Assembly (NCBI RefSeq): GCF_026967985.1
Contig: NZ_JAPVBJ010000002.1
Location: 1-64,000, forward strand
Reading direction: 5' to 3'
Length of the DNA stretch: 64,000 nt
From: Modestobacter sp. VKM Ac-2984
GTDB taxonomy: Bacteria > Actinomycetota > Actinomycetes > Mycobacteriales > Geodermatophilaceae
Shown piece by piece: positions 3,284 to 18,170 of the stretch. The position numbers and the translations under genes are program-made. Every line of letters begins with the position of its first letter. The first letter of the stretch is position 1. A model generated the notes under the pieces. That model saw only the letters and a program-made list of their open reading frames with translations. It searched no databases and was not told where the DNA came from.

Positions 3284-3363
3284 GCCCCGACCGTAGGCGG
3301 CGGCACCGACAACTCCGGACCTGGGCGTGCGGTGGCTGTGGACGACCGGTTGGATGGGCCTCG

Positions 3364-4191: not shown

Positions 4192-4228
4192 GGCCGCCCG
4201 CGGGACGACGAGGACCCGAGAACGGTGG

Positions 4229-4513
4229 GTGTCGACCCGGTCGTGGACTGCCGATGAGGAGGGCGTGACCGCTCCGGCTGCCCTCGAGGCCCCGACCGAC
4301 GGGGACGATCCCGTCCCCTTCGGCCCGCAGACCGTCGTCCAGGAGGCGACCGCCGCCGGCCTGGCCGCCATCGCCCGGCTGCACGACGAGGCCCTGGCAG
4401 CGATCGCCGCGCTTGCCGAGAGCTGGGACCAGCCGGCCGACCCCGTCCGGGTGCTCCGCACGGCCGAGCGGCCGGCGGTCGTCCTCCGGCCCGGGAACAC
4501 AGCCGCCGCCTGA
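4229..4513 (+). CDS. Small uncharacterised helical protein, paralogue of the protein at 22450
   Basis: An unknown 94-residue protein starting at GTG 4229; a second GTG at 4265 sits very close behind a GGAGG and could be the true start. The centre has an amphipathic stretch, LAAIARLHDEALAAIAALAE, followed by a proline-rich tail. The same pattern (LASIARIHADGLAAVATIAE, then a P-I/V-R-V and A..VV tail) occurs in the 121-residue protein at 22450, so the two are paralogues. It has no signal peptide or membrane segment. It lies immediately upstream of the carbamate kinase promoter. Function unknown. Confidence 0.6.
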   Translation: MSTRSWTADEEGVTAPAALEAPTDGDDPVPFGPQTVVQEATAAGLAAIARLHDEALAAIAALAESWDQPADPVRVLRTAERPAVVLRPGNTAAA

Positions 4514-4519
4514 TCTGGC

Positions 4520-4547
4520 GGAAGTACTTCACCGCTAAGGCAGTTCC
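4520..4547 (+). promoter_or_regulatory. Dyad operator 1 upstream of carbamate kinase
   Basis: An imperfect palindrome with left arm GGAAGTACTTCA, centre CCGC and right arm TAAGGCAGTTCC. The left part matches two sites between the divergent fdrA and molybdenum-hydroxylase genes (13535-13604), sharing the core pattern GTAC-Y-TCA-S-CGCT. It covers the predicted -35 box, so a bound protein would block transcription. The regulator is not identified. Confidence 0.65.
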
Positions 4548-4557
4548 CCGCTAGGGT
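4528..4557 (+). promoter_or_regulatory. Predicted promoter of the carbamate kinase-barbiturase unit, leaderless
   Basis: TTCACC (4528-4533), an 18-nt spacer and TAGGGT (4552-4557) form a typical actinobacterial promoter. The ATG at 4564 lies only six bases after the -10 box, so transcription should start at or next to the A of the start codon. This agrees with the absence of a Shine-Dalgarno sequence before the ATG. Confidence 0.6.
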
Positions 4558-4563
4558 CACGCA

Positions 4564-5532
4564 ATGGCCCTCCCCCGTCGTGTCGTCATCGCCCTGGGCG
4601 GCAACGCGATGACCGGCGCCGACGGCTCCGCCACGCCCCGTGCCCAGCGCGAGGCCATCGCCGCGGCCGCCCAGCACATCGCCGCCGTCGTCGCCACCGG
4701 GGCCGAGGTGGTCCTCACCCACGGCAACGGCCCCCAGGTCGGCAACCTGCTGGTCAAGAACGAGCTGGCGGCGCACGTGGTCCCACCGGTCCCGCTGGAC
4801 TGGAACGTCGCCCAGACCCAGGCCACCATCGGGTTCACCCTCGCCGACGAGCTGGACGCCGCCCTGGCCGCCCTCGGCTCGTCCCAGCGCACCGCGGCGC
4901 TGGTCACCCGCACCCTCGTCGACCCCGCCGACCCCGGGTTCGCGACGCCGTCCAAGCCGGTCGGCCGGCACCTGAGCCGGGACGAGGCCCAGCGCTTCAT
5001 CGACCTCGGGCAGAACTGGGAGGACCGCGGCGAGCGCGGCTGGCGGCGGGTGGTCCCCTCGCCCGAGCCGCTGTCGGTGGTCGACGTCCCGGCCATCTCC
5101 GCGCTCAGCGCGGCCGGGTTCGTGGTCGTCTGCGCCGGCGGCGGCGGTGTGCCCGTGGTCCCGGGCGCCGCGAGCGGCGATGCCCTGATCGGCGTCGAGG
5201 CCGTCATCGACAAGGACCTCACCGCCGCACTGCTCGCCCGGGAGCTCCGCGCGGACACCCTGGTCATCGCCACCGACGTCCCGCACGTGATGGTCGACTT
5301 CGGCACCCCGTCGGCCCGCCCGCTGACCCGGGTCACCGTCGCCGAGATGCGTGCCCACGCCGACGCCGGCCAGTTCGCCCGCGGCAGCATGGGCCCCAAG
5401 GTCGAGGCCGCGCTCCGGTTCGTGACCGACTCCGGGGACGGCCGTCAGGGCGCTCGCGCCGTCATCACCGCACTGCCCCACATCTCCGACGCCGTCGCCC
5501 GTGACGACGTCGGCACCGTCGTCACCGCATAG
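4564..5532 (+). CDS. arcC: Carbamate kinase
   Basis: A 322-residue amino-acid-kinase-family protein that transfers phosphate between carbamoyl phosphate and ADP, yielding ATP plus carbamate in catabolism. Visible motifs are VIALGGNA near the N-terminus, THGNGPQVG near 53-61, [16 protein letters not shown] near 192-199, and [15 protein letters not shown], all standard for the family. The barbiturase-family gene follows 11 bp downstream with its own AAGGAGA, so the two are one operon. No arginine deiminase (arcA) or catabolic ornithine carbamoyltransferase is nearby. The carbamoyl phosphate source is therefore more likely the FdrA/DUF1116 pair, which shares the operator. Confidence 0.92.
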
Positions 5533-5543
5533 AAGGAGAAGAC

Positions 5544-6647
5544 ATGCCCGCACCGATCGAGGTCCGCAAGGTCCCGCTGCACAACGTCAGCGACGCCTCC
5601 GAGCTGGCCAAGCTCATCGACGACGGCGTCATGGAGGCCGACCGGGTCATCGCCGTCATCGGCAAGACGGAGGGCAACGGCGGCGTGAACGACTACACCC
5701 GGATCATCGCCGACCGCGCCTTCCGCGAGGTGCTGATGGAGAAGGGCTCACGGAGCAAGGAGCAGGTCGGGGAGATCCCGATCGTGTGGTCCGGCGGCAC
5801 GGACGGCGTGATCAGCCCGCACGCCACGATCTTCGCCACGCTGCCCGAGGACTCGGTGGAGAAGACCGACGAGCCGCGGCTGACCGTCGGGTTCGCGATG
5901 AGCGAGGTGCTGCTGCCCGAGGACATCGGCCGGCTCACCATGGTCGAGAAGGTGGCCGAGGGAGTGCGCCGGGCGATGGCCGAGGCGGGCATCACCGACC
6001 CGGCCGACGTCCACTACGTGCAGACCAAGACGCCGCTGCTGACCATCGAGACGATCCGCGAGGCCAAGTCCCGCGGCGAGGAGACCTACTACGACGAGCC
6101 GCACGGCTCGATGGACCTCTCCAACGGCACGACGGCGCTGGGCATCGCGCTGGCGCTGGGTGAGATCGAGATGCCGGAGCAGAAGCAGGTGATGCGCGAC
6201 TTCGACCTGTTCAGCGCGGTCGCCTCCTGCTCCTCGGGCGTCGAGCTGGACCGGGCGCAGATCATCGTCGTCGGCAACGCCCGCGGCCACGGCGGCGACT
6301 ACCGGATCGGCCACTCGGTGATGACCGACGCCCTCGACCAGGACGGCATCTGGAACGCCATCCGGGACGCCGGCCTCGAGCTGCCCGATCGGCCGCACAC
6401 CTCCGACCTGGACGGCAACCTGGTCAACGTCTTCCTCAAGTGCGAGGCCGACCCGACCGGCTACGTGCGCGGCCGGCGCAACGCGATGCTCGACGACTCC
6501 GACGTCTTCTGGCACCGGCAGATCAAGGCCACCGTCGGCGGCGTCGCCGCCTCGGTGACCGGCGACCCGGCGGTGTTCGTGTCGGTGGCCGCCGTGCACC
6601 AGGGGCCCTCCGGCGGCGGCCCGGTCGCCGCCATCGTCAAGGCCTGA
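5544..6647 (+). CDS. Ring-opening amidohydrolase of the barbiturase/cyanuric acid hydrolase family
   Basis: A 367-residue cytosolic enzyme of the family containing AtzD (cyanuric acid to carboxybiuret) and barbiturase (barbiturate to ureidomalonate). These proteins have three repeats, each contributing a Lys-Ser pair. Here the candidate pairs are Lys41 (VIGKTEGNG) with Ser83 (SGGTDG), Lys162 (QTKTPLL) with Ser230/231 (ASCSSG), and Lys328 (RQIKATVGG) with Ser356 (HQGPSGGGP). Length is normal. Spacing and a good ribosome-binding site tie it to carbamate kinase. With a molybdenum hydroxylase under the same operator, barbiturate is the more attractive substrate, but motifs alone do not separate the two activities. 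Confidence 0.88.
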
Positions 6648-6652
6648 GCGAC

Positions 6653-6684
6653 GGCGCCGGCCGGGTCAGGTCCCGGCCGGCGCC
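6653..6684 (+). terminator. Hairpin terminator between barbiturase-like gene and ohr
   Basis: A perfect 13-bp stem (GGCGCCGGCCGGG, 6653-6665, with its complement at 6672-6684) and a 6-nt loop, 5 bp after the barbiturase-like stop codon. It lacks a U-tract, as is common in this group. It lies between convergent genes and may serve both. Confidence 0.7.
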
Positions 6685-6707
6685 CCCAGGCGCGATCCTG
6701 GTGCCTG

Positions 6708-7130
6708 TCAGGCGACCGTGGTCTCCAGGGTGACCGGGACGTTGCCGCGGGTGGCGTTGGAGTACGGGCAGACCTGGTGCGCGGCCTCCACGAGCTGCTC
6801 CGCGGTCGCCTGGTCGACGCCGCCGAGCTCGACGTGCAGGGCGACCTCCAGCCCGAAGCCGCCTGCGTCGTTCGGCCCGATGCCGACCTCCGCGGTGACC
6901 CCGGCGTCACTGATCGGCGCCTTCTGCTTGCGGGCCACCATCTTCAGTGCGGACAGGAAGCACGCGGCGTAGCCGGCGGCGAAGAGCTGCTCGGGGTTGG
7001 TGGCGCCGCCCTCGCCACCCATCTCCTTCGGCGTGGCCAGGTCCAGGTCGATCAGACCGTCGGAGGAGCGGGTGTGGCCGTTGCGGCCGTCACCGGTGGC
7101 GGTGGCGACGGCGGTGTAGACGCTGGGCAT
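6708..7130 (-). CDS. ohr: Organic hydroperoxide resistance protein (Ohr/OsmC family)
   Basis: A 140-residue thiol peroxidase that reduces organic hydroperoxides. Family features are MPSVYTAVATATGDGRNG at the N-terminus, the first catalytic cysteine in GYAACFLSAL, and the second in HQVCPYSNATRGN. The ATG at 7130 is preceded by GGAGG with good spacing; longer forms in the same frame add unrelated residues. It is divergent from the phosphatase gene at 7313. No ohrR regulator gene lies next to it, although a palindrome is present 20 bp upstream. Confidence 0.93.
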   Translation of the reverse strand: MPSVYTAVATATGDGRNGHTRSSDGLIDLDLATPKEMGGEGGATNPEQLFAAGYAACFLSALKMVARKQKAPISDAGVTAEVGIGPNDAGGFGLEVALHVELGGVDQATAEQLVEAAHQVCPYSNATRGNVPVTLETTVA

Positions 7131-7149
7131 GAGCGGTCCTCCAAGTGGT

Positions 7150-7164
7150 TGGGTGTAGCACCCA
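7150..7164 (-). promoter_or_regulatory. Possible operator upstream of ohr
   Basis: The palindrome TGGGTG-TAG-CACCCA lies 20 bp upstream of the ohr start, with another CACCCA at 7170-7175. It could be a repressor site such as for an OhrR-like protein, but does not match a motif I can name. Confidence 0.35.
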
Positions 7165-7312
7165 CTGTGCACCCAGCGGACCAGCCGTACGGCTGCCCCG
7201 GCGCCGATCTCGCTCACACTCCTCGGGTGCGTGGTCCTGACCAGTGGGTTCGCTACCTTGAGCGCTGCGCCGGACCCGCGGGGGGAGACCGGACGGACGA
7301 GGAGCTGCAGCA

Positions 7313-8398
7313 GTGACCAGGTCGCAACGCCTGCAGCGGGCACTGCCCGCAGGGGTGCTGGCCGTCGTGACCGTGACCGACGTCGTCAGTGGGCCCGAGC
7401 AGGTGATCCTCGGCCTGGTCGTCATGGCCCCGCTCCTGGCGGCGACGACGCTCGGCCGGCGGGGCACGGTGAGCTACGCCGTCCTGGCCCTCGTGCTGGC
7501 GGCGCTGTTGGGCGTCTACGACCAGCAGTACACCGCGAGCACGCTGCTCCCCCAGGTCGTCCGGTTGCTGGCGGTGGCAGGCGGCGGCGTCCTGGCGGTG
7601 GGCGCCTGCAGCCTCCGGCTGCGCCGCGAGGCCCAGCTGGCCCGGCTGAGCGCACAGGCGGCGACCACGGAGGCGGCGCTGCAGACGGCCGAGGCGCTGC
7701 AGCTCAACCTGCTCGGCCCGCCGCCGCGGGTGGCGGGCCTGGAGTCGGCCGTGCGGTACCTGCCGGCCAGCCGGCACACCCAGGTGGGCGGCGACTGGTA
7801 CGACGCCTTCCCCCTCCCGGACGGGACCACCATGCTGGTCATCGGGGACGTCGCCGGGCACGACGCCCCGGTTGCCGCGACGATGGCGCAGACCCGGGCG
7901 ATGCTCCAGGCGATCGCCCAGCGCTCGACCGGCTCGCCGGCGGAGGTGCTGTGCACTCTGGACGAGGTGCTCGCCGGTCTGGACCTACACACCCTGGTCA
8001 CGGTGATCGTGGCGCAGGTCGACGCCCCGTCGTCCGTTGACGGCTCGCGGCGGTTCCGGTGGTCCAACGCGGGCCACCCACCACCGGTGCTGGCGAGGGC
8101 CGGCGACGAGGTCGGCCTGCTCGCGGCCGCCCCCGAGAGCCTGCTCGGCATCGCACCCGGCGTCCAGCGGACCGACCACACCCTCGAGCTGGGCGCCGGC
8201 GACACGCTGCTCTTCTACACCGATGGGCTGGTCGAACGACGCGGTGCACCGCTCGACGACGGGTTGGCCTGGCTGGTCGGTGAGCTGAAGAGGACCGGCC
8301 GGGAGCCCCTCGACCGGCTCTGCGACGACCTGCTGGGCCAGCTCGGTGGGCGGGTCGACGACGACGTGGCACTGCTCGCCGTCCGCGTCCCCGGCTGA
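7313..8398 (+). CDS. Membrane-anchored SpoIIE-type PP2C serine phosphatase
   Basis: A 361-residue protein. Residues about 8-110 hold three or four hydrophobic segments, then a short helical linker (about 103-130) leads to a SpoIIE/PP2C domain. Metal-binding acids are visible in GGDWYDAF (about 159-166), VIGDVAGHD and the final RVDDDVALLAV. The FYTDGLVERRG motif is also present. Such proteins usually dephosphorylate anti-anti-sigma factors in partner-switching stress pathways, or act in two-component-like signalling. No anti-sigma kinase or STAS protein is adjacent. GTG 7313 is the start, with GAGGAG about 12 bp upstream. Confidence 0.88.
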   Translation: MTRSQRLQRALPAGVLAVVTVTDVVSGPEQVILGLVVMAPLLAATTLGRRGTVSYAVLALVLAALLGVYDQQYTASTLLPQVVRLLAVAGGGVLAVGACSLRLRREAQLARLSAQAATTEAALQTAEALQLNLLGPPPRVAGLESAVRYLPASRHTQVGGDWYDAFPLPDGTTMLVIGDVAGHDAPVAATMAQTRAMLQAIAQRSTGSPAEVLCTLDEVLAGLDLHTLVTVIVAQVDAPSSVDGSRRFRWSNAGHPPPVLARAGDEVGLLAAAPESLLGIAPGVQRTDHTLELGAGDTLLFYTDGLVERRGAPLDDGLAWLVGELKRTGREPLDRLCDDLLGQLGGRVDDDVALLAVRVPG

Positions 8399-8417
8399 GC
8401 ACGGGGCGACCGGCGGG

Positions 8418-9113
8418 TCAGGCCGCGCGGCCGCGACCCTCGGCCTTGACGTCGGCGGCGTAGCGGTCGACGTACTCGGCACCGGACAGCCGCTGCAGCT
8501 CGACCATGACCCGATCGGTGACCTCCCGCAGCGCCGCCCCGTCGTCAGCCGGCCCCGGGTGGTCGGAGAAGTCCAGCGGTTCGCCAATCCGGACGACCAC
8601 CCGGCCGGGCCGGGGCAGCCGGGCACCCGGGGGCATGAGCGCCCGGCTGCCGATCACCGCGATCGGCACCACCGGCGCCCCGGTGGACAACGCCAGCCGG
8701 GCCACCCCCGTCTTGCCGCGGTGCAGCCGACCGTCGGGCGACCGGGTGCCCTCCGGGTAGATGCCGAGCACCCCGCCGTCGGCGAGCACCTCCCGGCCGC
8801 GTCGCAGCGCGGCCTCGGCGGCGGTGGCCCCGCCGCGGTCCAGGGGGACCATGCCGATGCTCTCCAGGAGCAGGCGCATCGCCCGCCCCGTCAGCCCGGG
8901 TCGGGTGAAGTACTCGCTCTTGGCCAGGTAGGTCACCCGGCGGTGGCTGAGGACCGGGGGGAAGAACTGGTCGAGCGTGGAGGGGTGGTTGCCGGCCAGG
9001 ATCACCGGCCCGGTGGCCGGGAGGTTGTCCGCCCCCTCGACCTGCGGCCGGAACAGGCCCAGGACCAGCGGTCGCACGAGGGCACGGACGACCGGGTAGG
9101 CGTCCACACTCAC
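8418..9113 (-). CDS. 1-acyl-sn-glycerol-3-phosphate acyltransferase family protein
   Basis: A 231-residue PlsC-family acyltransferase. The catalytic HX4D motif is NHPSTLDQF near 42-50, followed by LAKSEYF and the substrate-binding YPEGTRSPDG near 134-143. It should transfer a fatty acyl chain to lysophosphatidate or a similar acceptor at the inner face of the membrane. The GTG at 9113 overlaps the stop of the zinc-ribbon gene by 4 bp, so translation is probably coupled. Exact acceptor lipid unknown. Confidence 0.88.
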   Translation of the reverse strand: MSVDAYPVVRALVRPLVLGLFRPQVEGADNLPATGPVILAGNHPSTLDQFFPPVLSHRRVTYLAKSEYFTRPGLTGRAMRLLLESIGMVPLDRGGATAAEAALRRGREVLADGGVLGIYPEGTRSPDGRLHRGKTGVARLALSTGAPVVPIAVIGSRALMPPGARLPRPGRVVVRIGEPLDFSDHPGPADDGAALREVTDRVMVELQRLSGAEYVDRYAADVKAEGRGRAA

Positions 9114-9373
9114 CGCTCGTCCGGTGCCCGGCCGGCATGGTCGACCAACTGCTCGGCGCTGCCCTGCCCGTGCATCCGGGCGCAGGACGCGCAGCAGAAG
9201 AAGACGCCGTCGGCCTCGACCCCGTGGCCGACCACCTTCACGCCGCAGTGTTCGCAGATCGGGGCCAGGGCGTGGATGGCGCACTCGAAGCTGTCGAAGG
9301 TGTGCACCGCCCCGGCGGCGTGCACCTCGAAGCTGAGCCGGTAGTCGTTCCCGCAGACCTCGCAGCTGGCCAT
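9110..9373 (-). CDS. Small cysteine-rich zinc-ribbon protein
   Basis: An 87-residue protein with CEVCG at 4-8, FECAIH near 29-34, CEHCG near 40-44, and CCASCARMH near 60-68, giving several CxxC pairs and histidines that should bind one or two zinc ions. It has no signal peptide. It is the first gene of a two-gene unit with the acyltransferase. Function unknown. Confidence 0.75.
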   Translation of the reverse strand: MASCEVCGNDYRLSFEVHAAGAVHTFDSFECAIHALAPICEHCGVKVVGHGVEADGVFFCCASCARMHGQGSAEQLVDHAGRAPDER

Positions 9374-9487
9374 GCCCCCACCCTCCGTCTAGGTGACGAC
9401 CGGAGTGGGCCACCTGTTGCGGACAACTACCCAGCGCCTCGCCAGATCAAAATTGTTGATGGTCCGCTCTGCGGGCTTAGTGGCGTG

Positions 9488-9517
9488 GCGACGTGACAGC
9501 ATTGGTGACAACGTCGC
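9488..9517 (-). terminator. Weak hairpin downstream of the TIR gene
   Basis: GCGACGT (9488-9494) pairs with ACGTCGC (9511-9517) around a 16-nt loop, 29 bp past the TIR gene stop codon. The stem is short and has no U-tract, so termination is only a suggestion. The rest of 9374-9545 is relatively AT-rich and holds no gene I can support. Confidence 0.3.
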
Positions 9518-9545
9518 TAGACATGCGCTGGATGTCCGCTCGAGT

Positions 9546-10604
9546 TTAACGAATTAGGGCGATGGGCGCATAGCGTGCAATTAGCCGCTTAGTGCCGACC
9601 TTGTCGAAGTCTACAGTTAGGCTTGTCTTTGTTCCGGCTCCGGCAATATCGACGACCGATCCTTCACCAAAGGTGTCGTGATGGATTCGACTTCCTGGCT
9701 CCAAATCCTTGACGATAGCCATAGACCGCGCCGTACTGTACTCACTCCTTCTAGTTCCCACTTCTTCATCGACAGATGGACTAACATCGAAGATGGCCTG
9801 GTATCCGAAATGTCGTAGAGCAACTCGGACAGCCTCTTTTTCGTCGTCATATGCGTAGTCGCGAGTTTTAATACGAACCACAAGCTTCACTGCGTCGACA
9901 CCCACGCTGCTGACTCGGTCTTCGCCGAGGATCTCCCACACAACGTTGGCCAACCTATCCACACTGTCTCGAAGCTCCCGGCCCGAAGTTAGTTCGGGGG
10001 CGGCGGCACCGCCTGGGACCTGTCGCGTCAGTCCGCGGACAAGGCTCAGAACTTCTCGCAACATATCTTCTGGGTCGCGCTCGGCGGGCACATCAGCGGA
10101 GTCCGCCACCGCGTGACTATTCGCAATACCTTTTAGCTCGTCCTCCAGTCTCGGCCACCACACCTCCAAGGTCGCGGCAAGGCGGATTTCACCTAGAGGA
10201 CTCGTGGAGAGCGCGTCGATTGCAGTGAGCACAGACTCAATACCGGCCCTGTCCGCTTGCACAGCTTGAAAAGTAGACAAAGGACCCTTTAAGTCGGTCG
10301 GTTCCGCGAAATCGATCAACAAGGGGATGACGCGGCCTTCTCGGTCTTCAACGGAACGAGAGATCGCCCCCGCCTCAAAGTTCAGCCATACCTTCTCCTG
10401 GTTCTCTCGCGTGACACAGATGATGCCAATATCTGTCGCGTCCAGTGCTTCCGTGATGGACTTGTCCCACTTAACCCCCGCAGCCAGGTCCCGGTCGGAC
10501 ATCCAGGGTTCACGGATCCCCTGGATCACGTTAGGCAGCCACTGGCGGAGGGCCCTAGCTACGTCCTTGCTCTTTGAACCGGACCAACTCAAAAAGACGT
10601 TCAT
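9546..10604 (-). CDS. TIR-domain protein with a UvrD/PcrA-like C-terminal domain, probably acquired
   Basis: A 352-residue protein. Residues 1-100 form a bacterial TIR domain: MNVFLSWSG first strand, EPWMSDRDL, GIICVT, and the likely catalytic Glu77 in WLNFEAGA. Such domains cleave NAD+ or act as effectors in anti-phage systems. Residues about 175-290 are unlike anything I recognise. Residues 299-352 (PGSRIHHDTFGEG, then VDFDKVGTKRLIARYAPI) resemble the Tudor-like tail of UvrD/PcrA helicases, which contacts RNA polymerase. Base composition and codon use are far more AT-rich than both flanks, a sign of horizontal transfer. No Thoeris ThsA, CBASS or Pycsar cyclase partner is adjacent. The ATG at 10604 places the TIR strand at the N-terminus, as usual. 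Confidence 0.82.
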   Translation of the reverse strand: MNVFLSWSGSKSKDVARALRQWLPNVIQGIREPWMSDRDLAAGVKWDKSITEALDATDIGIICVTRENQEKVWLNFEAGAISRSVEDREGRVIPLLIDFAEPTDLKGPLSTFQAVQADRAGIESVLTAIDALSTSPLGEIRLAATLEVWWPRLEDELKGIANSHAVADSADVPAERDPEDMLREVLSLVRGLTRQVPGGAAAPELTSGRELRDSVDRLANVVWEILGEDRVSSVGVDAVKLVVRIKTRDYAYDDEKEAVRVALRHFGYQAIFDVSPSVDEEVGTRRSEYSTARSMAIVKDLEPGSRIHHDTFGEGSVVDIAGAGTKTSLTVDFDKVGTKRLIARYAPIALIR

Positions 10605-10637
10605 GCCCACCCCCGTCAACATCTGTGTTCGCAGAGC

Positions 10638-12053
10638 TTACGAGGCCGCGCGGGACTCCTGGGCCAGTGCCGCCAGGGCCTGCTCGAAGCAGGCCTGCGG
10701 CGGCTGCACCAACCCGGCGCCGACCTGGCCGGTGCCGGCGACCCGGCCGGCCATGCCGGTGTTGATCTGCGGCAGCCAGCCGGTGCGCGCGACCTGGAGG
10801 ACGTCGATGCCGGTCGGGGAGCCGCGGAAGCCCATGATCGGGATCTGCATCGCCGGGTTCTCCGCCAGCGTCAGCTGGTACATCCGCTCGGTGGTCGCCA
10901 GCGCGTCGGGGACGGTGCCCCCGACGAACCGGACGATCGCCGGTGCCGCGGCCATGGAGAACCCGCCGACGCCGTAGGCCTCCATGATCGCGGAGTCGCC
11001 GATGTCGGGGTTGGCGTCCTCGGGGCCGTAGTCGCCGAGGTAGAGGCCGACCGGGGTGTTGGCCGGGGCGGTGAACCAGCGGTCACCGGTACCGGCGGTC
11101 TGGATGCCGAACTCGGTGCCGTTGCGCGACAGCACGGTGACCATCGTCGAGCCGGGGACGTCGCGGGCGGCGTCCATCGCCAGCTTCGCCGTGGGCATGC
11201 CGAGGTTCAGGTAGAAGTGCTCGTTGCCGCCGATGAAGCGCAGCACCTCGGCGATGTCCTGGGCCGGTGCGTCGACGCCGACGATGGACGGCGACAGCTC
11301 GCGCAGTGCCATCAGCGAGCCGGCGCGGTTGCGGTTGTGCCCCTCGTCGCCCATCTGCAGCATCTGGGCCAGGATCGCCTTGACGTCCAGCGGCTCCGGC
11401 CGGCTGCGGACGGCGCGCTGGAGCACCGGGCCGAGCACGTCGCGCATCCAGGCCAGCCGGGTGAGCACCTCGTCGTTGTAGGCGCCCATCCGCAGCACCT
11501 TGCCCAGGCCCTCGTTGAGGTTGCACCAGGCCTGCCCGCCGTTGGCCGGGTCCTCCAGGCACCACATCCACATCGACGGGCTGGTCACCCCGGCCATCGG
11601 GCCGACCGTGCGGTGGTGGTGGCAGGGGTCGAGCGTGATCTCGCCGGCGGCCAGGATGCGCTCGGCGTCGGCGACGTCGGTGGCCCAACCCTCGAATACG
11701 CAGGCGCCGATGAGCGCGCCGCGCATGGGACCGGAGGCGGTCTCCCAGGTCAGCGGCGGGCCGGAGTGCAGCAGCATCCGGTCGGGCAGGTCGAGCACCT
11801 CCCGGGCCGGCCGGACGTCGACCAGCAGCGAGCCCGCGGCGAGCACCCGCTCGACCGCGACCCGGTTGGCGGCCGCCCGGCGCGGGTCCAGCGCGAGCTG
11901 GGTGAGGTCGTCCGGGTTGCCGAAGCCCGGCGGGCGCCAGTCGACGTCGGTGACGCTCGCCCCCTGCTGCCGGAGCGCGGTGGAGAAGACCTCGACGCCG
12001 GCGGCGACGATGGACGGCGGGGCGGACAGCAGTCCGCCGAGGGGCTCACTCAT
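10638..12053 (-). CDS. DUF1116 family protein (AllG/YlbE-like), putative carbamoyltransferase subunit
   Basis: A 471-residue protein of the DUF1116 family. The E. coli member YlbE (AllG), together with FdrA (AllF) and YlbF (AllH), has been linked to oxamate transcarbamylase, which phosphorolyses oxalurate to oxamate and carbamoyl phosphate. Conserved-looking blocks are DPCHHHRTVGPMAGVTSPSM, QAWCNLNEGLGKVLRMGA and GDEGHNRN. The ATG at 12053 overlaps the end of the fdrA-like gene by 8 bp, so the two are co-translated. No DUF2877 (AllH) gene is in the window. The true substrate here may be ureidomalonate rather than oxalurate. Confidence 0.85.
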   Translation of the reverse strand: MSEPLGGLLSAPPSIVAAGVEVFSTALRQQGASVTDVDWRPPGFGNPDDLTQLALDPRRAAANRVAVERVLAAGSLLVDVRPAREVLDLPDRMLLHSGPPLTWETASGPMRGALIGACVFEGWATDVADAERILAAGEITLDPCHHHRTVGPMAGVTSPSMWMWCLEDPANGGQAWCNLNEGLGKVLRMGAYNDEVLTRLAWMRDVLGPVLQRAVRSRPEPLDVKAILAQMLQMGDEGHNRNRAGSLMALRELSPSIVGVDAPAQDIAEVLRFIGGNEHFYLNLGMPTAKLAMDAARDVPGSTMVTVLSRNGTEFGIQTAGTGDRWFTAPANTPVGLYLGDYGPEDANPDIGDSAIMEAYGVGGFSMAAAPAIVRFVGGTVPDALATTERMYQLTLAENPAMQIPIMGFRGSPTGIDVLQVARTGWLPQINTGMAGRVAGTGQVGAGLVQPPQACFEQALAALAQESRAAS

Positions 12054-13515
12054 GGCCGTCTCCGATCAGGCTGAGGGCGTGGCGGGTGGCGGCGGCGTTG
12101 GAGGCGAAGACCGCGGCGCCGGCCTCGGCGAGCGCGTCGGCCTGCCGGGACCAGCACTGGGGGTCCGCCTCGGTGCCGACCAGCGCCACGACGGTGGGCA
12201 GGCCGGCAGATCGCAGCGCGGGGACGAGGGCGACGGCCGGGTCGGGGTCGGCCCCGTGGCCGAGGACGACGTCGAGCAGCAGGACGGCGGGTTCCCCGCT
12301 CTCCGCAAGGCCGGCGATCGCCTCCAGCCGCAGCGTCGGGTCGATCATCGGGTGCGCGCGGCCCACGGTGAGCGCGTCGTCGCCGAAGTCGACGACCACG
12401 TGCCCGGTCGCGCGCAGGTCGGTGCCCAGGTCGAGCTCGGGGCGCAGCGGGGTGTTGGAGCGGATGTCGCCCAGGGCCGGGGCGGCGATCAGCATCGTCT
12501 CGTCGGCGAGGGTCCCGCCGGAGTAGAAGCCCTTGAGGACGGCGCCGGCGGGCACGGCGGCCGCGGTCCCGGGCCGGGAGGGCCACTCGGGGACGGCGAC
12601 GCCCAGGTCACCGAGGAGCGCCTCCACCGCGGCGGTGAGGTCGGGCTGCTCCGGGCTGAGCGCGGCGGACCGGACCGGGACCGACAGCCCGGCCGCGACC
12701 TCCTGCACCCGGGCGGCGACCGCGGGCGCCGGCGGCTTGGAGACCAGCAGCACCCGTTCGGTGGCCGGGTCCGCGTCCAGCGCGGCCAGGGCGTCGAGGG
12801 TGGCCAGCCCACCGACGGCCTCGGACAGGTCGCGGCCACCGACGCCGAGCACGTGGGAGACACCGACACCGGCCGCGTCGAGCAGGCAGCTGACCTGCTG
12901 GGCACCGGTGCCCGACGCCGCGACCAGGCCCACCGGGCCACGCCGGACGACGTTGGCGAAGCCGAGGGCCAGGCCGGAGACGATCGCCGTCCCGCAGTCC
13001 GGGCCCATCACCAGCACACCGGCGTCGTGCGCGGCGCGCTTGAGCGCGACCTCGTGCTCGACCGGCACCCCGTCGCTGAAGATCAGCACCGATCGGCCGG
13101 CGGCGATGGCGTCGGCGGCCTCGGCGACCGCGTACGGCCCGGGCACGCTGATGATCGCCAGCGCCGGGTCGTCCGCGCCGTCCAGGCCGGCGCCGATCGT
13201 GCGGGCCGGGATGGTCTGCGCCTCGCCCCGGTCGGCGCGGGCGGTGAGCGCGGCGTCGACGGCGGCGACCGCGGCGGCCAGCTCGGCGTCGTCGGCGGCG
13301 GTCAGCGCGATCAGCAGCTGGTCGGGCTTCGCCTCGCCGTCGGGCGCCAGGCCCATGCCGGCGGCGAGCTCGAGGTTCAGCGGCGTGGCCATCGCGACGA
13401 CGACGGTGTGCACGCCGGGGCGGTCACCGATCTCGCGGCTGACCTGCATGAGGCGGACGGAGTCGGCGTAGACACCGCTGCGGAGGGAGACGTGCCGGAC
13501 TGGACTGTCGCTCAC
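12046..13515 (-). CDS. FdrA-like acyl-CoA-synthetase-fold protein, putative carbamoyltransferase subunit
   Basis: A 489-residue relative of FdrA (AllF). The N-terminus SGVYADSVRLMQVSREI matches the usual FdrA opening. A succinyl-CoA-synthetase-like core follows: ISVPGPYAVAEA, SDGVPVEHEVALKRAA, MGPDCGTAIVSG and VAASGTGAQQVSCLLD. FdrA pairs with DUF1116 proteins in oxamate transcarbamylase. The GTG at 13515 is chosen because it lies just before this conserved opening. It has no ribosome-binding site, and a TAGCGT box ends 8 bp before it, suggesting a leaderless transcript. Divergent from the molybdenum hydroxylase operon. Confidence 0.85.
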   Translation of the reverse strand: MSDSPVRHVSLRSGVYADSVRLMQVSREIGDRPGVHTVVVAMATPLNLELAAGMGLAPDGEAKPDQLLIALTAADDAELAAAVAAVDAALTARADRGEAQTIPARTIGAGLDGADDPALAIISVPGPYAVAEAADAIAAGRSVLIFSDGVPVEHEVALKRAAHDAGVLVMGPDCGTAIVSGLALGFANVVRRGPVGLVAASGTGAQQVSCLLDAAGVGVSHVLGVGGRDLSEAVGGLATLDALAALDADPATERVLLVSKPPAPAVAARVQEVAAGLSVPVRSAALSPEQPDLTAAVEALLGDLGVAVPEWPSRPGTAAAVPAGAVLKGFYSGGTLADETMLIAAPALGDIRSNTPLRPELDLGTDLRATGHVVVDFGDDALTVGRAHPMIDPTLRLEAIAGLAESGEPAVLLLDVVLGHGADPDPAVALVPALRSAGLPTVVALVGTEADPQCWSRQADALAEAGAAVFASNAAATRHALSLIGDGHE

Positions 13516-13554
13516 CTGGCGGGACGCTACCGGAGAAAGTCTCTCAGCGGTGAG
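13513..13554 (-). promoter_or_regulatory. Predicted promoter of the fdrA-DUF1116 unit, leaderless
   Basis: On the minus strand TAGCGT (13524-13529) lies 8 nt before the GTG start, and a CTCACC -35-like box lies 19 nt further upstream inside dyad operator 2. The sequence from the operator half-site through the -10 box aligns well with the carbamate kinase promoter. Confidence 0.5.
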
Positions 13555-13562
13555 GTAGTTCG
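13535..13562. promoter_or_regulatory. Dyad operator 2 in the fdrA/cutM-like divergent region
   Basis: Arms GAAAGTCTCTCA and TGAGGTAGTTCG flank a GCGG centre. Read on the minus strand the second arm gives ACTACCTCACCGCT, matching ACTTCACCGCT of operator 1. It overlaps the predicted -35 of the fdrA-like gene. Confidence 0.6.
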
Positions 13563-13576
13563 CCGGTCGAGTTCGG

Positions 13577-13604
13577 CCCGAAGTTTTAGCGCTGAGGTAC
13601 TTCC
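13577..13604. promoter_or_regulatory. Dyad operator 3 upstream of the molybdenum hydroxylase operon
   Basis: Centre GCGC (13589-13592) with right arm TGAGGTACTTCC and a poorer left arm ending GAAGTTTTA. Its reverse complement reads CGGAAGTACCTCAGCGCTAA, which differs from operator 1 by two bases over 20. The centres of operators 2 and 3 are 42 bp apart, four helical turns, so two bound proteins would sit on the same face. Confidence 0.6.
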
Positions 13605-13628
13605 GTCCCGCGGGACCACGGTGACAGA

Positions 13629-14546
13629 GTGACGCCTTCCACATCCACGCCTGGAGGTGACCCGCAGCCGGTGAAGCCCGCTCCGTTCGGCTATGCCGAC
13701 CCGACCTCGGTCGACGAGGCGCTCGACGTCCTGACCGCGGAGGGCGAGGGTGCGAAGGTGCTCGCCGGCGGGCAGTCGCTCCTCCCCCTGCTCTCGATGC
13801 GCCTCGCTGCGCCCACCACCCTGGTGGACATCAACCGGGTGCCCGGGCTCGACCAGATCTCCGTCGGCCGCGACGGGGTGCGGGTGGGTGCGTTGGTCCG
13901 GCACGCCCAGCTGCTCGCCTCGACCGAGGCGGCCGGCGTGCAGCCGCTGCTCTGCCGGGCGACGGCGAACGTCGCCCACCCGGCCATCCGCAACCGCGGG
14001 ACGACGGTCGGCTCCATCGCGCACGCCGACCCCTCGGGCGAGATGACCGCGGTGCTGGCCCTGACGGACGGTTCTGTCACGGTCGCGACGCCCGACGGGC
14101 GCGAGACGATCGGCTGGGGCGACTTCTTCCTCGGCCCGCTGGAGACCTCGGTGCACGGGCCGGCCGTCGTCCTCGACGTTTTCTTCCCGGCGCTGCCGGA
14201 GCGGTCGGGCACCGCGTTCGCCGAGATCTCGCGGCGCAAGGGCGACTACGCGGTCTGCGGGGCGGGCGTCGTCGTCACGCTCGACGCCGACCGGCGGGTC
14301 AGCTCTGCCCGGGCGGCCTACCTCTCCGTCGGGCTGGTGCCCGAGGTGCACGACCTGACCGACGCCGTCGTCGGCCAGCCGGTCGACTCGGCGGACTGGG
14401 CGGCGGCCGGCGAGCTGGCCCGCGGCAAGGTCGACCCGGACGGCGACCTGCACGCCAGCGCCGACTACCGGCGACTGCTGGTCGCGACCCTCACCGCCCG
14501 CACGCTGGCCGACGCCGGCGCCGAAGCAGCCAGGAGGACCGCGTGA
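13629..14546 (+). CDS. Molybdenum hydroxylase FAD-binding (medium) subunit, CoxM/CutM-like
   Basis: A 305-residue FAD subunit of a xanthine-oxidase-family enzyme. FAD-contact motifs are KVLAGGQSLLPLL near 43-55 and NRGTTVGSIAHADPSGEM near 121-138. The usual family start (KPAPFGYADPTSV) begins at residue 15, so a GTG at 13671, 11 nt after a GGAGGTGA, is an alternative start. GTG 13629 is kept because it gives an uninterrupted frame and its spacing to an upstream box resembles the other leaderless starts. It overlaps the iron-sulfur subunit gene by 4 bp. Confidence 0.88.
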   Translation: MTPSTSTPGGDPQPVKPAPFGYADPTSVDEALDVLTAEGEGAKVLAGGQSLLPLLSMRLAAPTTLVDINRVPGLDQISVGRDGVRVGALVRHAQLLASTEAAGVQPLLCRATANVAHPAIRNRGTTVGSIAHADPSGEMTAVLALTDGSVTVATPDGRETIGWGDFFLGPLETSVHGPAVVLDVFFPALPERSGTAFAEISRRKGDYAVCGAGVVVTLDADRRVSSARAAYLSVGLVPEVHDLTDAVVGQPVDSADWAAAGELARGKVDPDGDLHASADYRRLLVATLTARTLADAGAEAARRTA

Positions 14547-15106
14547 CCGAGGTGTGCACAGAACGGGCGATCTCCGTCGTCGTCAACGGTGTTCCACGTG
14601 AAGCCACGGTGCCGGTGCGCTGGCTGCTGTCGGACGCGTTGCGACACGGGTTCGGGCTGACCGGCACGCACGTGGGCTGCGAGCACGGCGTCTGCGGGGC
14701 CTGCACCGTGCTGGTCGACGGGCAGCCGACCCGCTCCTGCCTGGTGCTCGCCGTTCAGGTCGACGGCCGCGAGGTGACCACGGTCGAGGGCCTGTCCCGG
14801 TCGGACCACCAGGGCGGGCAGGTGCTGCACCCGATCCAGGAGGCGTTCCGGGAGTGCCACGCGCTGCAGTGCGGGTTCTGCACGCCGGGCTTCCTGACCA
14901 CGATCGCGGCCGGCCTGGACGCCCGCGACCCGTCGGTGGAGATCACCGAGGAGGAGGTCGACGACATGGTCGGCGGCAACCTGTGCCGCTGCACCGGCTA
15001 CGCCAACATCAAGAAGGCCTGCCGGCACGCAGCCGCGACCATGCGCGACTCCGCAGGGGCCAAAAGCGCGACTTTGGCCCCTGACAGCCAGGAGGCGGGG
15101 CGGTGA
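14543..15106 (+). CDS. Molybdenum hydroxylase [2Fe-2S] (small) subunit, CoxS/CutS-like
   Basis: A 187-residue electron-transfer subunit with two [2Fe-2S] sites. The N-terminal plant-ferredoxin-like cluster uses [12 protein letters not shown] and the later RSC; the second uses CGFCTPG and NLCRCTGY. It carries electrons from the molybdenum site to FAD. The C-terminus extends about 25 residues past the usual end with low-complexity sequence. It overlaps both neighbours by 4 bp (GTGA), so the three subunits are translationally coupled. Confidence 0.93.
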
Positions 15107-17520
15107 CGACGAAGTTGTTCGGGGAGCCGGTGCGCCGGCGGGAGGACGCCCGGCTGATCATCGGCCAGGGCCGCTACCTCGACGACATCGGCTCCGGGGC
15201 CTACGAGGCGGCGTTCGTCCGCAGCCCGTACGCGCACGCCCGGGTGCTCGACATCGACGTCAGTGCGGCGATGGACGTCGAGGGCCTGCTGGCCATCTAC
15301 ACCTACGAGGACCTCACCGGCCCGCTGGCCGAGCCGCTGCCGGTGCTCATCCCGCACCCCCAGCTCACCTCCCCGCGCACCGGCTACCCGCTGGTGAAGG
15401 ACGTCGCCCAGCACGTGGGCGAGCCGATCGTGATGGTGGTCGCCACCGACCGGTACATCGCCGAGGACGCCGCCGGGCTGATCGAGATCAGCTACGAGGA
15501 ACTGCCGGTCGTGGTGGGCGTCGACGCGGCCGAGGCCGCCGAGCACACCGTGCACGACGACGTCCCGGACAACGTCGCCGCCCGCCACCACCAGGAGACC
15601 GGCGACGTCGAGGCGGCGCTGGCTGCCAGCGCGCACACCCTGTCCTTCACCCAGTACTTCGAGCGCAGCGCCTCCATGCCGATGGAGGGCAAGGGCGTGC
15701 ACGCCCGCTGGGACGACGCCGACTCCTCGCTGCGGGTCTACTCCTCCACCCAGGCATCCACGTCGGTGCGCGCGGCGATCGCGGCCAAGCTCGAGCTGTC
15801 GATGGAGAAGGTCGAGGTCATCGCGCCCGACGTCGGCGGCGGGTTCGGCGTGAAGATCGTGCACCCGTGGCCGGAGGAGCTGCTCGTGCCGATGGCCGCG
15901 CGGCTGCTGGGCCACGAGGTGAAGTGGACCGAGGACCGGCGCGAGCACTTCATCTCCAGCGCGCACGAGCGCCAGCAGCGGCAGGAGATCACTGTCGGGT
16001 ACGACGACGACGGGCGGATCACGGCCCTCGACGTCCTCGTCTGGCACGACAACGGCGCGTACACGCCCTACGGGATCATCGTGCCGATCAACACGGCCAC
16101 CCAGCTGTGCGGCCCCTACGACATCCCGGTCTACCGGGCCCGGGTCAACAGCGTCTACACGAACACGGTCATCGTCACGCCGTACCGCGGGGCCGGGCGG
16201 CCGCAGGGCACGTTCGCGATGGAACGCACGATGGACCGGATCGCCCAGGAGCGCGGCATCGACCGGGCGCTGGTGCGGGAGCGGAACCTGATCCAGCCCG
16301 ACCAGTTCCCCTACGACTGGGGCCTGACGTTCCAGGACGGCCGGCCGCTGATCTACGACTCCGGTGACTACCCGGCGATGATGGCCAAGCTGAAGGTGCT
16401 GGTCGACTGGGACGGGTTCGCCGAGCGGCGGGCCGCGGCCGAGGCGCGCGGGAAGCTGCTGGGCATCGGGATGGCGCCCTACGTCGAGGGCACCGGGCCG
16501 GGGCCGTACGAGGGCGCGCACGTGCAGGTGCTGGGCAGCGGCAAGGTGCTGGTCTCCACCGGGCTGACCTCGCAGGGCCAGGGGCACGAGACGGTGTTCG
16601 CCCAACTGGCGGCCGCGGAGCTCGGCGTCCCGCTGGAGGACGTCGAGGTTACCACCGGCGACACCCGGCGTTTCGGGTACGCGGTCGGCACGTTCGCCTC
16701 CCGGGCCGCGGTGGTGAGCGGCAACGCCGTCGCGCTGGCGGCTCGCGGGGTGAAGGAGAAGGCGCTGCGGATCGCCGCCGAGGTGCTGGAGGCCGACCCG
16801 GCCGACCTGGAGATCGACGAGGGCCTGGTACAGGTCAAGGGGACGCCGGGCGCCTCCATCCCGCTGCGCACGGTCGCCGTCCTGTCCAACCCGCTGCGGT
16901 ACGCCTTCGACGAGGCGGCGCGGCAGGCGACCCAGTTCTCCGGGCCGGGCGACGACTCCAAGCCGCCGGTGGCGGTCGGGGACGCGCCGGGGCTGGAACA
17001 CACCGACTACTACTCCCCGCTCCGCTCGACCTTCGCCTCCGGCGCGCACGCCGTGGTCGTGGAGATCGACCCGGCGACCTGGGAGATCGCGATCGAGCAG
17101 TACGCGGTGGTGCACGACTGCGGCACGATCATCAACCCGATGATCGTCGAGGGGCAGGTGCACGGCGGCGTCGCGCAGGGCGTGGGCGGGGCGCTGTACG
17201 AGCGGATGGCCTACGACCGCGACGGTCAGCTGACCAACGCCTCGTTCATGGACTTCCTGATGCCGTACGCCTCCGAGGTGCCCGACGTCGACATCGACCA
17301 CCAGTCGACGCCGTCCCCGCTCAACGAGCTGGGGATCAAGGGCGCCGGCGAGGCCGGCGTCATCCCCGGCTCGGCGGCGATCGCCTCGGCGATCGAGGAC
17401 GCGGTGGGACGGCGGATCGCGGCGATGCCGATCTCCCCCACCGAGCTGTACGACCTGGTGCGCTCGGACGCCGAGCGCGTGACCAACTCTTCTCCCCACG
17501 ACTCTGGAGCGATGGCGTGA
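15103..17520 (+). CDS. Molybdenum hydroxylase large (catalytic) subunit, CoxL/CutL-like but not CO dehydrogenase
   Basis: An 805-residue molybdopterin-binding subunit. It begins EPVRRREDARLIIGQGRYLDD, as in aerobic CO-dehydrogenase-like enzymes. The active-site loop is PYRGAGRPQG (about 360-369), the form II type; true CO dehydrogenases carry a CSFR loop with the copper-binding Cys. The catalytic Glu is in KGAGEAGVIP (about Glu750), and VGGGFGVK and GQGHET contact the cofactor. The enzyme therefore hydroxylates an organic substrate. With barbiturase and carbamoyltransferase genes under the same operator, uracil or another N-heterocycle is a reasonable guess. Confidence 0.92.
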   Translation: MTTKLFGEPVRRREDARLIIGQGRYLDDIGSGAYEAAFVRSPYAHARVLDIDVSAAMDVEGLLAIYTYEDLTGPLAEPLPVLIPHPQLTSPRTGYPLVKDVAQHVGEPIVMVVATDRYIAEDAAGLIEISYEELPVVVGVDAAEAAEHTVHDDVPDNVAARHHQETGDVEAALAASAHTLSFTQYFERSASMPMEGKGVHARWDDADSSLRVYSSTQASTSVRAAIAAKLELSMEKVEVIAPDVGGGFGVKIVHPWPEELLVPMAARLLGHEVKWTEDRREHFISSAHERQQRQEITVGYDDDGRITALDVLVWHDNGAYTPYGIIVPINTATQLCGPYDIPVYRARVNSVYTNTVIVTPYRGAGRPQGTFAMERTMDRIAQERGIDRALVRERNLIQPDQFPYDWGLTFQDGRPLIYDSGDYPAMMAKLKVLVDWDGFAERRAAAEARGKLLGIGMAPYVEGTGPGPYEGAHVQVLGSGKVLVSTGLTSQGQGHETVFAQLAAAELGVPLEDVEVTTGDTRRFGYAVGTFASRAAVVSGNAVALAARGVKEKALRIAAEVLEADPADLEIDEGLVQVKGTPGASIPLRTVAVLSNPLRYAFDEAARQATQFSGPGDDSKPPVAVGDAPGLEHTDYYSPLRSTFASGAHAVVVEIDPATWEIAIEQYAVVHDCGTIINPMIVEGQVHGGVAQGVGGALYERMAYDRDGQLTNASFMDFLMPYASEVPDVDIDHQSTPSPLNELGIKGAGEAGVIPGSAAIASAIEDAVGRRIAAMPISPTELYDLVRSDAERVTNSSPHDSGAMA

Positions 17521-18170
17521 ACCTCGACGGCAGTGCGGTCCTCTCGGCGGCACCGGAGCAGGTCTGGGCGGTGATCACCGACCCGGCGGTGCTGGCACGG
17601 ACGATCCCGGGCTGCGAGTCGCTGAAGCAGGTCGGTGAGGACAGCTACACGATGGTCGTCTCGGCCGGCGTGGGGGCGATCCGCGGGAAGTACGCGGGCG
17701 AGGTGCGGCTGTCGGACATGACCTTCCCGTCCTCCTACGTCATGCACGCGTCCGGCTCTGGCGGGCCCGGGTCGGTACGGGCCACCGTGCAGATCAAGCT
17801 CGTCCCCTCGGGTGACGGCACGGAGCTGACGTACTCGGCGGACGCCGTGGTCGGTGGCGCGGTCGCGGGTGTGGGGCAGCGGATGATCACCGGCGTCGCG
17901 AAGAAGATGGCCGGGCAGTTCTTCGCCGCGGTGGACAAGGAACTGGTGGAGCCGAACGTGGTGGCCCCGGTCATCCCGATCGCCGCCGACGTTCCCGCGG
18001 GAACGTCGGCCGACGCCGCTCCCACTCCCGTCACCCACGCCAAGGCCCCGGCCGCTGCGGGCGGCTGGGTGCCGGCCGAGGCGCGGCCCCTGCTGGTCGG
18101 CGCCGCCGGCGGCAGCCTGCTCACCCTGCTCGGCGCCTGGATCGGCTACCTCCTCGGCCGCCGCGGCTGA
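17517..18170 (+). CDS. CoxG-like SRPBCC protein with C-terminal membrane anchor
   Basis: A 217-residue protein. Residues 1-145 are the CoxG domain, a lipid-binding START-like fold (DGSAVLSAAPEQVWAVITDP, TIPGCESLKQVGED, KYAGEVRLSDM). A Pro/Ala-rich linker and a hydrophobic helix near 190-212 ending in LGRRG follow. CoxG of CO dehydrogenase is reported to carry menaquinone to the enzyme from the membrane, so this protein probably links the molybdenum hydroxylase to the quinone pool. It overlaps the large-subunit gene by 4 bp. Confidence 0.88.
   Translation: MNLDGSAVLSAAPEQVWAVITDPAVLARTIPGCESLKQVGEDSYTMVVSAGVGAIRGKYAGEVRLSDMTFPSSYVMHASGSGGPGSVRATVQIKLVPSGDGTELTYSADAVVGGAVAGVGQRMITGVAKKMAGQFFAAVDKELVEPNVVAPVIPIAADVPAGTSADAAPTPVTHAKAPAAAGGWVPAEARPLLVGAAGGSLLTLLGAWIGYLLGRRG

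Follow-up and report, generated by a model that had tools for sequence, protein, structure and literature searches.

The genes described here lie at positions 4564 to 18170 of a 64,000-nucleotide stretch of Modestobacter sp. VKM Ac-2984 (contig NZ_JAPVBJ010000002.1, positions 1 to 64,000; the window), and they bring together a carbamate kinase, a ring-opening amidohydrolase, two carbamoyltransferase subunits and a molybdenum hydroxylase. Two described systems, oxidative pyrimidine degradation and the oxamate branch of allantoin use, are called to mind by this combination. For the former we know of no published gene for either the uracil/thymine dehydrogenase of the first step or the ureidomalonase of the third. 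Knowledge of oxidative pyrimidine breakdown goes back to the 1950s, and the conversion of uracil to barbiturate and of barbiturate to ureidomalonate is an established route, according to the available part of PMC3758960. In E. coli, AllFGH was assayed as it formed oxalurate from oxamate and carbamoyl phosphate, the physiological direction being the reverse (available part of PMC11326118). In nitrifiers AllFGHK is found beside biuret/triuret hydrolase genes; that text finds atzD absent from the nitrifier genomes and makes no mention of barbiturase or barbiturate (PMC12625717). Among the literature matches listed, all of them open-licence, no paper joins barbiturase to AllFGH or to carbamoyl phosphate, an absence that carries little weight.

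A first reading of this DNA, made from its letters alone (the sequence-only reading), had proposed an ATP-yielding oxidative pyrimidine pathway. We consider it likely that the block is part of a regulon for oxidative pyrimidine catabolism in a soil bacterium, and that one step of it is phosphorolytic and conserves ATP. This view is built on the identity of the ring-opener, on the linkage of the genes across genomes and on an operator-like palindrome that they share.

Gene families and the identity of the ring-opener

Every named component of the block was confirmed by Pfam and NCBIfam profiles, so that the gene identifications of the sequence-only reading are borne out. The plus strand carries an AllK-type carbamate kinase (4564..5532; PF00696, 112 bits) followed by the ring-opening amidohydrolase, a barbiturase (5544..6647; PF09663, Amido_AtzD_TrzD, 491 bits). 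On the minus strand lie an AllG-type carbamoyltransferase subunit, formerly DUF1116 (10638..12053; PF06545, 317 bits), and an AllF/FdrA-type subunit (12046..13515; PF00549, 98 bits) whose open frame reaches 13644. The hydroxylase genes follow on the plus strand: the CoxM-type FAD subunit (13671..14546, alternative start 13629; PF00941 and PF03450), the CoxS-type 2Fe-2S subunit (14543..15106; PF01799 and PF00111), the CoxL-type molybdenum subunit, which is the proposed uracil/thymine dehydrogenase (15103..17520; PF02738 and PF20256), and a CoxG-type accessory protein (17517..18170; PF06240, 97 bits). By their spacing, with 11 bp from AllK to barbiturase, an 8-bp overlap of AllF and AllG and a 4-bp overlap at each CoxM/S/L/G junction, these look like three tight transcription units, AllK-barbiturase, AllF-AllG and CoxMSLG.

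The ring-opener is, about as firmly as sequence allows, a barbiturase of group VI of the AtzD/Bar family. Its membership of that family is given by PF09663 and by TIGR02714 (576 bits). In a comparison with solved structures the best match was barbiturase 5hwe (640 bits; 295 of 365 residues identical, 81%), which we take to come from Rhodococcus erythropolis, and the next was a cyanurate hydrolase at 334 bits; the nearest named barbiturases are 99% identical to the window enzyme. The three Ser-Lys pairs are intact (K41, S83, K162, S230, K299 and S347). In barbiturase numbering, the residues that discriminate barbiturase from AtzD are Asn194, His324, Lys328, Val348 and Ser/Ala349 (available part of PMC3758960), and the window enzyme carries all five (N194, H324, K328, V348, A349). 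In an alignment of 121 ring-openers, which takes in the window and two references and holds some genomes twice, 115 have NHKV with A, S or G in fifth place, and intact Ser-Lys positions. The AtzD set RTRGG occurs in four (AtzD itself, the enzymes of an Aminobacter and a Leclercia plasmid, and that of locus L187), and the remaining two are single variants. On its residue signature, NHKVA, the window enzyme is very unlikely to act on cyanurate, and the NCBIfam label of cyanuric acid amidohydrolase, whose model gives the protein 473 bits at a cut-off of 360, is probably wrong. The sequence-only reading, which had given the enzyme as a barbiturase and named cyanurate as an alternative ring, is strongly supported in its first choice.

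The family name attached to the molybdenum subunit also appears to mislead. CoxL exceeds the cut-off of NF040766 (aerobic CO dehydrogenase, 'CODH_aero_grp5') with 1448 bits against 950. Its closest solved chain is that of quinoline 2-oxidoreductase (1t3q, 475 bits), the CO dehydrogenase (CODH) chains reaching at most 421, and it has PYRGAGR at the position of CSFR in the CODH chains. AYxCSFR, whose letters are visible in the aligned CODH chains, is presumably their copper-binding Cys motif. The 48 CoxL matches in the loci that were fetched, some genomes being counted twice, comprise 44 with PYRGAGR (the window included), three with AYRGAGR, one with PYRGFGY and none with CSFR. Among 298 genomes of the window's order, 80 exceed the NF040766 cut-off, and these have PF09663 in 77 cases and a high-scoring AllG (defined below) in 73. 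Because the CSFR motif is missing and the family is linked to barbiturase, the name CO dehydrogenase is probably wrong for NF040766, and uracil/thymine dehydrogenase is a likely assignment of substrate for this CoxL family.

The kinase and transferase subunits resemble their E. coli counterparts (identity 42% for AllK, 40% for AllF and 48% for AllG). AllK scores 283.5 bits with the carbamate kinase model PRK12352 (cut-off 266) and 327 bits with arcC TIGR00746, below its cut-off of 358. AllF gives 391 bits with PRK06091 (FdrA), below the cut-off of 433, and 236 bits with its solved relative 3DMY; AllG gives 411 bits with its solved relative 3CLQ. In a tree of 53 AllG sequences, built by a quick method that carries a long-branch warning for the E. 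coli and E. faecalis proteins, the 26 barbiturase-linked sequences (the window's and 25 others) fall on one side of a branch with an SH-aLRT of 94. The AllGs of E. coli and E. faecalis and the cyanurate-linked ones lie outside this group, and in this tree the window AllG did not group with oxalurate-type AllG. Gly436 and Arg423 are fixed in all 25 barbiturase-linked rows compared (BAR_G134, cut by the edge of the fetched stretch, was left out). The four oxalurate- or cyanurate-linked rows have Glu or Asp at position 423 and His at position 436; His is also found at 436 in five other rows, and Gly in 9 of 18 rows from low-scoring AllG loci, which otherwise entered the tree only. A dedicated AllG group with Gly436 and Arg423 fits a changed substrate.

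Linkage across genomes

AllG matches above 280 bits are called high-scoring here, a threshold set after a gap from 287.8 to 252.2 bits had been seen; the match of genome G100, cut by a contig end, was counted as low-scoring. The counts and p-values of association ignore the relatedness of genomes. Among the 298 genomes of the order, 77 have a high-scoring AllG, 84 have PF09663 and 73 have both, and PF09663 is present in 2 of the 13 genomes with low-scoring AllG only, one of these two being the genome with a match cut by a contig end. The two genes share a contig in 59 genomes of the order and lie at most 13 kb apart in 42 of them. Outside the window's family PF09663 accompanies AllG in 31 of 35 genomes. 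In 346 genomes of the phylum the numbers are 26 for AllG, 24 for PF09663 and 19 for both, with PF09663 in none of the 17 genomes that have low-scoring AllG only. The linkage of AllG and ring-opener is not due to chance; it stands far above chance in order and phylum alike, relatedness uncorrected, and answers the sequence-only reading's pointer to the co-occurrence of these families in actinobacteria.

The arrangement of the genes in other genomes agrees with these counts. Beyond the order the phylum has 18 loci with both genes, of which twelve were read: all twelve contain AllF, AllG and AllH (DUF2877), ten AllK and eleven CoxM, and barbiturase and AllHFG are co-stranded in eleven. Genome G591 has CoxM with a distant CoxL (29% identical). 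Other actinobacterial classes have several loci where barbiturase, AllK, AllH, AllF, AllG and Cox genes are all co-stranded. In locus L177 the order is barbiturase, permease, AllK, AllH, AllF, AllG, two other genes, CoxM, CoxS, CoxL, a CoxG-like gene (recognised by eye) and an amidase, with a divergent PucR; genes overlap by 1-4 bp within AllK-H-F-G and within CoxM-S-L. The 80 named barbiturase loci that were kept, many of them cut by contig ends and none titled Rhodococcus erythropolis, include 73 with AllK, 51 with AllG and 49 with AllF. The distance from barbiturase to AllG is highly variable in relatives, from about 3 kb upward. Taken with the common palindrome, the co-occurrence and the same-strand loci elsewhere strongly support the sequence-only reading's claim that the blocks would form one functional unit.

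AllFGHK also adjoins ring-openers of another kind. On plasmids of Aminobacter and Klebsiella, fdrA and DUF1116 are found together with a ring-opener, a carbamate kinase and DUF2877, to which the plasmid of Klebsiella adds an allophanate hydrolase, and a Leclercia plasmid has in a row a ring-opener, an NCS2 permease, DUF2877, fdrA, DUF1116 and a carbamate kinase. These operons, in which a cyanurate-type ring-opener is joined to AllFGHK, span 1949-9590 of locus L170, 8427-20846 of L171 and 5338-24158 of L169. The ring-openers of the Aminobacter and Leclercia plasmids have cyanurate-type residues, and that of Klebsiella has the same protein accession as that of Aminobacter. No CoxL occurs in the three plasmid stretches read, the rest of the plasmid records not having been searched. 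In the stretches read, AllFGHK thus accompanies two kinds of ring-opener, and the hydroxylase occurs only where oxidation must first supply the substrate of the ring-opener. The plasmid operons suggest a phosphorolytic route for cyanuric acid, to allophanate and carbamoyl phosphate. That AllFG(H) and a carbamate kinase are grouped with ring-openers, as the sequence-only reading had it, was repeatedly found.

Five of the seven AllG genomes of the phylum that have no PF09663 were read. G007 and G360 have AllK-AllG-AllF beside a gene that looks alike in the two when compared by eye, the G007 copy scoring best as biuret hydrolase (278 bits, below the cut-off of 370); G449 and G329 have Cox-HyuAB-AllFG, and G310 has permease-AllF-AllG. 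Clusters of the order Cox-HyuA-HyuB-AllF-AllG were seen at L189 2696-11752 and L192 8856-18999, in genomes that have no PF09663, where HyuAB may be the ring-opener.

A shared palindrome and genes outside the block

An operator-like palindrome lies upstream of allK-bar (4521..4546, matching 21/26), and further sites occur in the divergent allF/coxM region (13536..13603), with a palindrome at 13536-13561 and a second copy, with one good half, at 13587-13603. A 17-base pattern, YAGCGSTGARGTASTTC, was built from these three window sites, so that its independent tests are the amidase site, the HyuA site and the relatives. It matches the 4.56-Mb genome exactly at only three places, all in this block (one at 4521-4537 on the minus strand). 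At up to two mismatches it has 16 matches genome-wide, 13 beyond the exact ones, against 5 for the reversed pattern, and one inexact match lies no more than 40 bp upstream of an amidase frame at C12:312564-313970. The 26-bp palindrome GAAGTACCTCAGCGCTGAGGTACTTC, at 19/26 or better, has five sites in 135 kb of the same genome: before allK, between allF and coxM, before a permease gene on contig C1, directly before HyuA and before the amidase. One hundred permuted palindromes average 0.02 sites in this 135 kb, with a maximum of 1. The regions scanned outside the window had been picked for candidate genes, and the 17-base pattern alone was run over the whole genome.

In relatives, at 17/26 or better, the palindrome stands upstream of AllK in 45 of 58 loci and of AllF in 33 of 43, and it occurs in none of 62 barbiturase gene bodies. 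The corresponding averages for 300 permuted palindromes are 0.13 and 0.25 loci (maxima 12 and 6). This test covered 62 of the 80 named loci, nearly all from the window's family. At 18/26 no palindrome was found in some related loci, for example L077 and L093. The AllG-less genome G176 has it at 18-19/26 before HyuA, permease and amidase. A scan for sigma-70 promoters found none. The blocks look co-regulated because the palindrome is common to allK-bar, allF/coxM, permease, HyuAB and amidase, and we infer that the blocks and the unlinked loci form one regulon, whose palindrome may be bound by PucR or by the MarR-family protein encoded beside HyuAB. Expression of the two blocks under different conditions would have counted against the sequence-only reading; the palindrome at both blocks and at three unlinked loci leans in its favour.

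In relatives an NCS2 permease and a PucR regulator lie within the barbiturase locus; in the window's genome both are on contig C1, adjoining the sole AllH gene found there, which is thus away from the block and leaves the AllH partner in this genome uncertain. The C1 permease scores 376 with the RutG model, 288 with UraA and 172 with xanthine permease, all below cut-offs, and against solved proteins it gives 213 bits with uracil permease and 52 with uric acid-xanthine permease; RutG is also the best model for the permeases of L082 and Embleya. The palindrome-bearing amidase gene (L202 9565-10971, the C12 frame given above; palindrome just upstream) and HyuAB (L198 12843-16792, which is C12:76843-80792, with HyuA at C12:76858-78885) are both distant from the block. 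The MarR-family gene beside HyuAB was profile-scanned in G176, and the copy in the window's genome was recognised by eye. An amidase ortholog of at least 73% identity is present in 46 of 56 genomes of the window's family, the window's included. The idea that amidase and AllFG replace each other, the amidase occurring only in AllG-less barbiturase genomes, is refuted by this count.

In the 80 named loci we also found an amidase in 10, a nitrilase-type hydrolase in 1, a CoA-transferase in 11 (nearest to succinate-glutarate CoA-transferase, below cut-off) and a carboxyltransferase in 6, families that would suit conversion of malonamate to malonate and acetyl-CoA. At L152 7173-12661 of Rhodococcoides fascians, in whose genome no AllG was found, genes for a CoA-transferase, a carboxyltransferase and an amidase-like protein lie to either side of barbiturase; this region is a candidate place for a classical ureidomalonase.

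Four genes that have no evident tie to the pathway separate barbiturase from AllG in the window: OsmC (6708-7343, minus strand), a SpoIIE phosphatase (7313-8398, plus), an acyltransferase (8418-9413, minus) and a gene with TIR and tudor domains (9546-10622, minus). The last has a third-position GC of only 0.61 and looks like a recent acquisition; its TIR domain is fused to a PcrA/UvrD-type tudor domain, a seemingly unusual pairing, and it could be a defence gene. Before allK, at 313-4191, lie 2OG-Fe(II) oxygenase, helicase-like (1043-3283, by eye) and PHP-domain genes; two relatives, G029 and G280, keep them in this order next to allK.

Proposed pathway and comparison with known systems

Family membership, the barbiturase signature, linkage and the palindrome were computed; from them we infer, in the following scheme, which substrates are used, that one step is a phosphorolysis, that it yields ATP and that the genes are regulated together. 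Uracil or thymine would enter through the NCS2 permease encoded elsewhere in the genome and be hydroxylated on the ring by CoxMSLG to barbiturate or 5-methylbarbiturate, which barbiturase would open to ureidomalonate. Phosphate would then receive the terminal carbamoyl group of ureidomalonate through the action of AllF-AllG and an AllH-type subunit, so that malonamate and carbamoyl phosphate are formed, and AllK would convert the latter to ATP, ammonia and CO2. The remaining nitrogen of malonamate could be freed by the co-regulated amidase, and the malonate so formed would enter metabolism through CoA activation, for which some related loci have a CoA-transferase. Ureidomalonate is oxalurate with one more CH2, and its phosphorolysis appears to be the best reading of the genes. 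With less assurance, we lean towards a wider view in which AllFGH is a branch of a ureide phosphorylase family that acts behind varied ring-openers and ureide makers. The ureides would be biuret-type compounds and those that arise from allantoin (oxalurate), from pyrimidines (ureidomalonate) and from cyanurate (1-carboxybiuret), each leading through carbamoyl phosphate to ATP; the window would hold the pyrimidine version, with CODH_aero_grp5 as the missing uracil/thymine dehydrogenase and the 26-bp operator uniting scattered genes.

Several observations weigh against this scheme. In the order, 11 of the 84 PF09663 genomes have no high-scoring AllG and 4 of the 77 AllG genomes have no PF09663; AllG is also absent from four of eight barbiturase genomes picked by hand, mostly for showing no AllG or AllK in the locus. 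As many genomes are related, the association counts overstate independence. AllH is present in all 51 members examined of the window's family, nine of which have no AllG, and the AllH-PucR pair is retained in both AllG-less, AllH-bearing genomes of the family that were read. As a marker of the complex AllH therefore fails inside the family; it holds outside, where it is found in 29 of 35 AllG genomes and in three genomes that have no high-scoring AllG. At 18/26 the palindrome is absent upstream of this genome's AllH. The permeases of L177 and of the Leclercia plasmid are closer to xanthine permease models, and HyuAB bears the palindrome yet has no role in the scheme. The amidase ortholog also occurs in G099, G190 and G202, genomes from which AllG and PF09663 are both absent, and is therefore not specific to the pathway; it could be a competing ureidomalonase. 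The sequence-only reading had seen no ureidomalonase and had drawn a route that avoids one; the route stands as a proposal, and the amidase is now a candidate for that enzyme. On the whole, what that reading said of the functional unit, the type of ring-opener and AllFG(H) with a kinase beside ring-openers holds, and its avoidance of ureidomalonase and the AllH partner in this genome are less secure.

Were the amidase, or HyuAB, a ureidomalonase, the route would be the classical hydrolytic one to urea and malonate, and AllFGHK would act on a different or minor ureide. Such a route is known for Rhodococcus (PMC3758960, in its available part, citing Soong et al.). The amidase gene bears the palindrome, and it comes after HyuAB-NmrA-MarR in two barbiturase loci, those of G176 and G221, both of which have no AllFGK; AllG is altogether missing from four barbiturase genomes. 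We nevertheless hold it unlikely, as AllG and AllK track barbiturase (AllK in 73 of the 80 named loci and in none of the four loci of AllG-less genomes), and the amidase, whose orthologs are found in AllG genomes too, is no replacement for AllG and suits malonamate or a general amidase role. Less likely again is the same architecture acting on another ring, derived from xanthine or other purines or some other N-heterocycle, with AllFG on oxalurate as in E. coli. AllG and AllF do belong to the oxamate carbamoyltransferase families, the permease of L177 matches xanthine permease models best and CoxL is generic among N-heterocycle hydroxylases; yet both the sequence and the residues mark the ring-opener as a barbiturase, the permease of this genome is of the uracil type, and the barbiturase-linked AllGs stand apart from those of E. 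coli and E. faecalis.

A cyanuric acid pathway, in which the ring-opener would give 1-carboxybiuret and AllFGH would split it into carbamoyl phosphate and allophanate, has its model in the gene sets of the Klebsiella, Aminobacter and Leclercia plasmids, the first with allophanate hydrolase, and the window protein does exceed the cut-off of the cyanuric acid amidohydrolase model (473 against 360 bits). It is very improbable here, given that the plasmid ring-openers have RTRGG against the window's NHKVA and that cyanurate requires no molybdenum hydroxylase. The least probable alternative of all is that CoxMSLG is a CO dehydrogenase and its barbiturase neighbourhood incidental: the 1448 bits with NF040766 (cut-off 950) speak for it, and against it are the PF09663 ring-opener in 77 of the 80 genomes above that cut-off and PYRGAGR at the CSFR position of the CODH chains.

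The oxidative pyrimidine scheme indicates which genes may serve the complete route in many actinobacteria, and it predicts substrate-level ATP from a nucleobase, where the textbook route loses the energy by hydrolysis. The NCBIfam label of CO dehydrogenase, if wrong, would matter for surveys of CO oxidation. Direct tests are possible with few purified proteins.

Each known system shares a part of this locus. With E. coli allFGHK, the oxamate branch of allantoin use, it has in common the module of carbamoyltransferase and carbamate kinase; barbiturase, hydroxylase and a pyrimidine-type permease take the place of the allantoin genes, of which none was identified among the window's neighbours (no dedicated search was made), and AllG falls in another group. 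As in the nitrifiers, the module is joined to a ureide-handling enzyme other than those for allantoin, which there is biuret hydrolase (available part of PMC12625717). The cyanuric acid pathway AtzD/AtzE/AtzF has a homologous ring-opener, and its plasmid versions adjoin AllFGHK, whereas the window has barbiturase-type specificity residues and a molybdenum hydroxylase. That hydroxylase has the subunit architecture of the aerobic CO dehydrogenase CoxMSL and passes the NF040766 cut-off; it differs in the missing CSFR and in its linkage to barbiturase. Finally, the oxidative pyrimidine degradation of Rhodococcus erythropolis uses a barbiturase, and the window's enzyme has 81% identity to the solved one; that route ends by hydrolysis to urea and malonate, whereas in the window barbiturase is accompanied by AllFG and a carbamate kinase.

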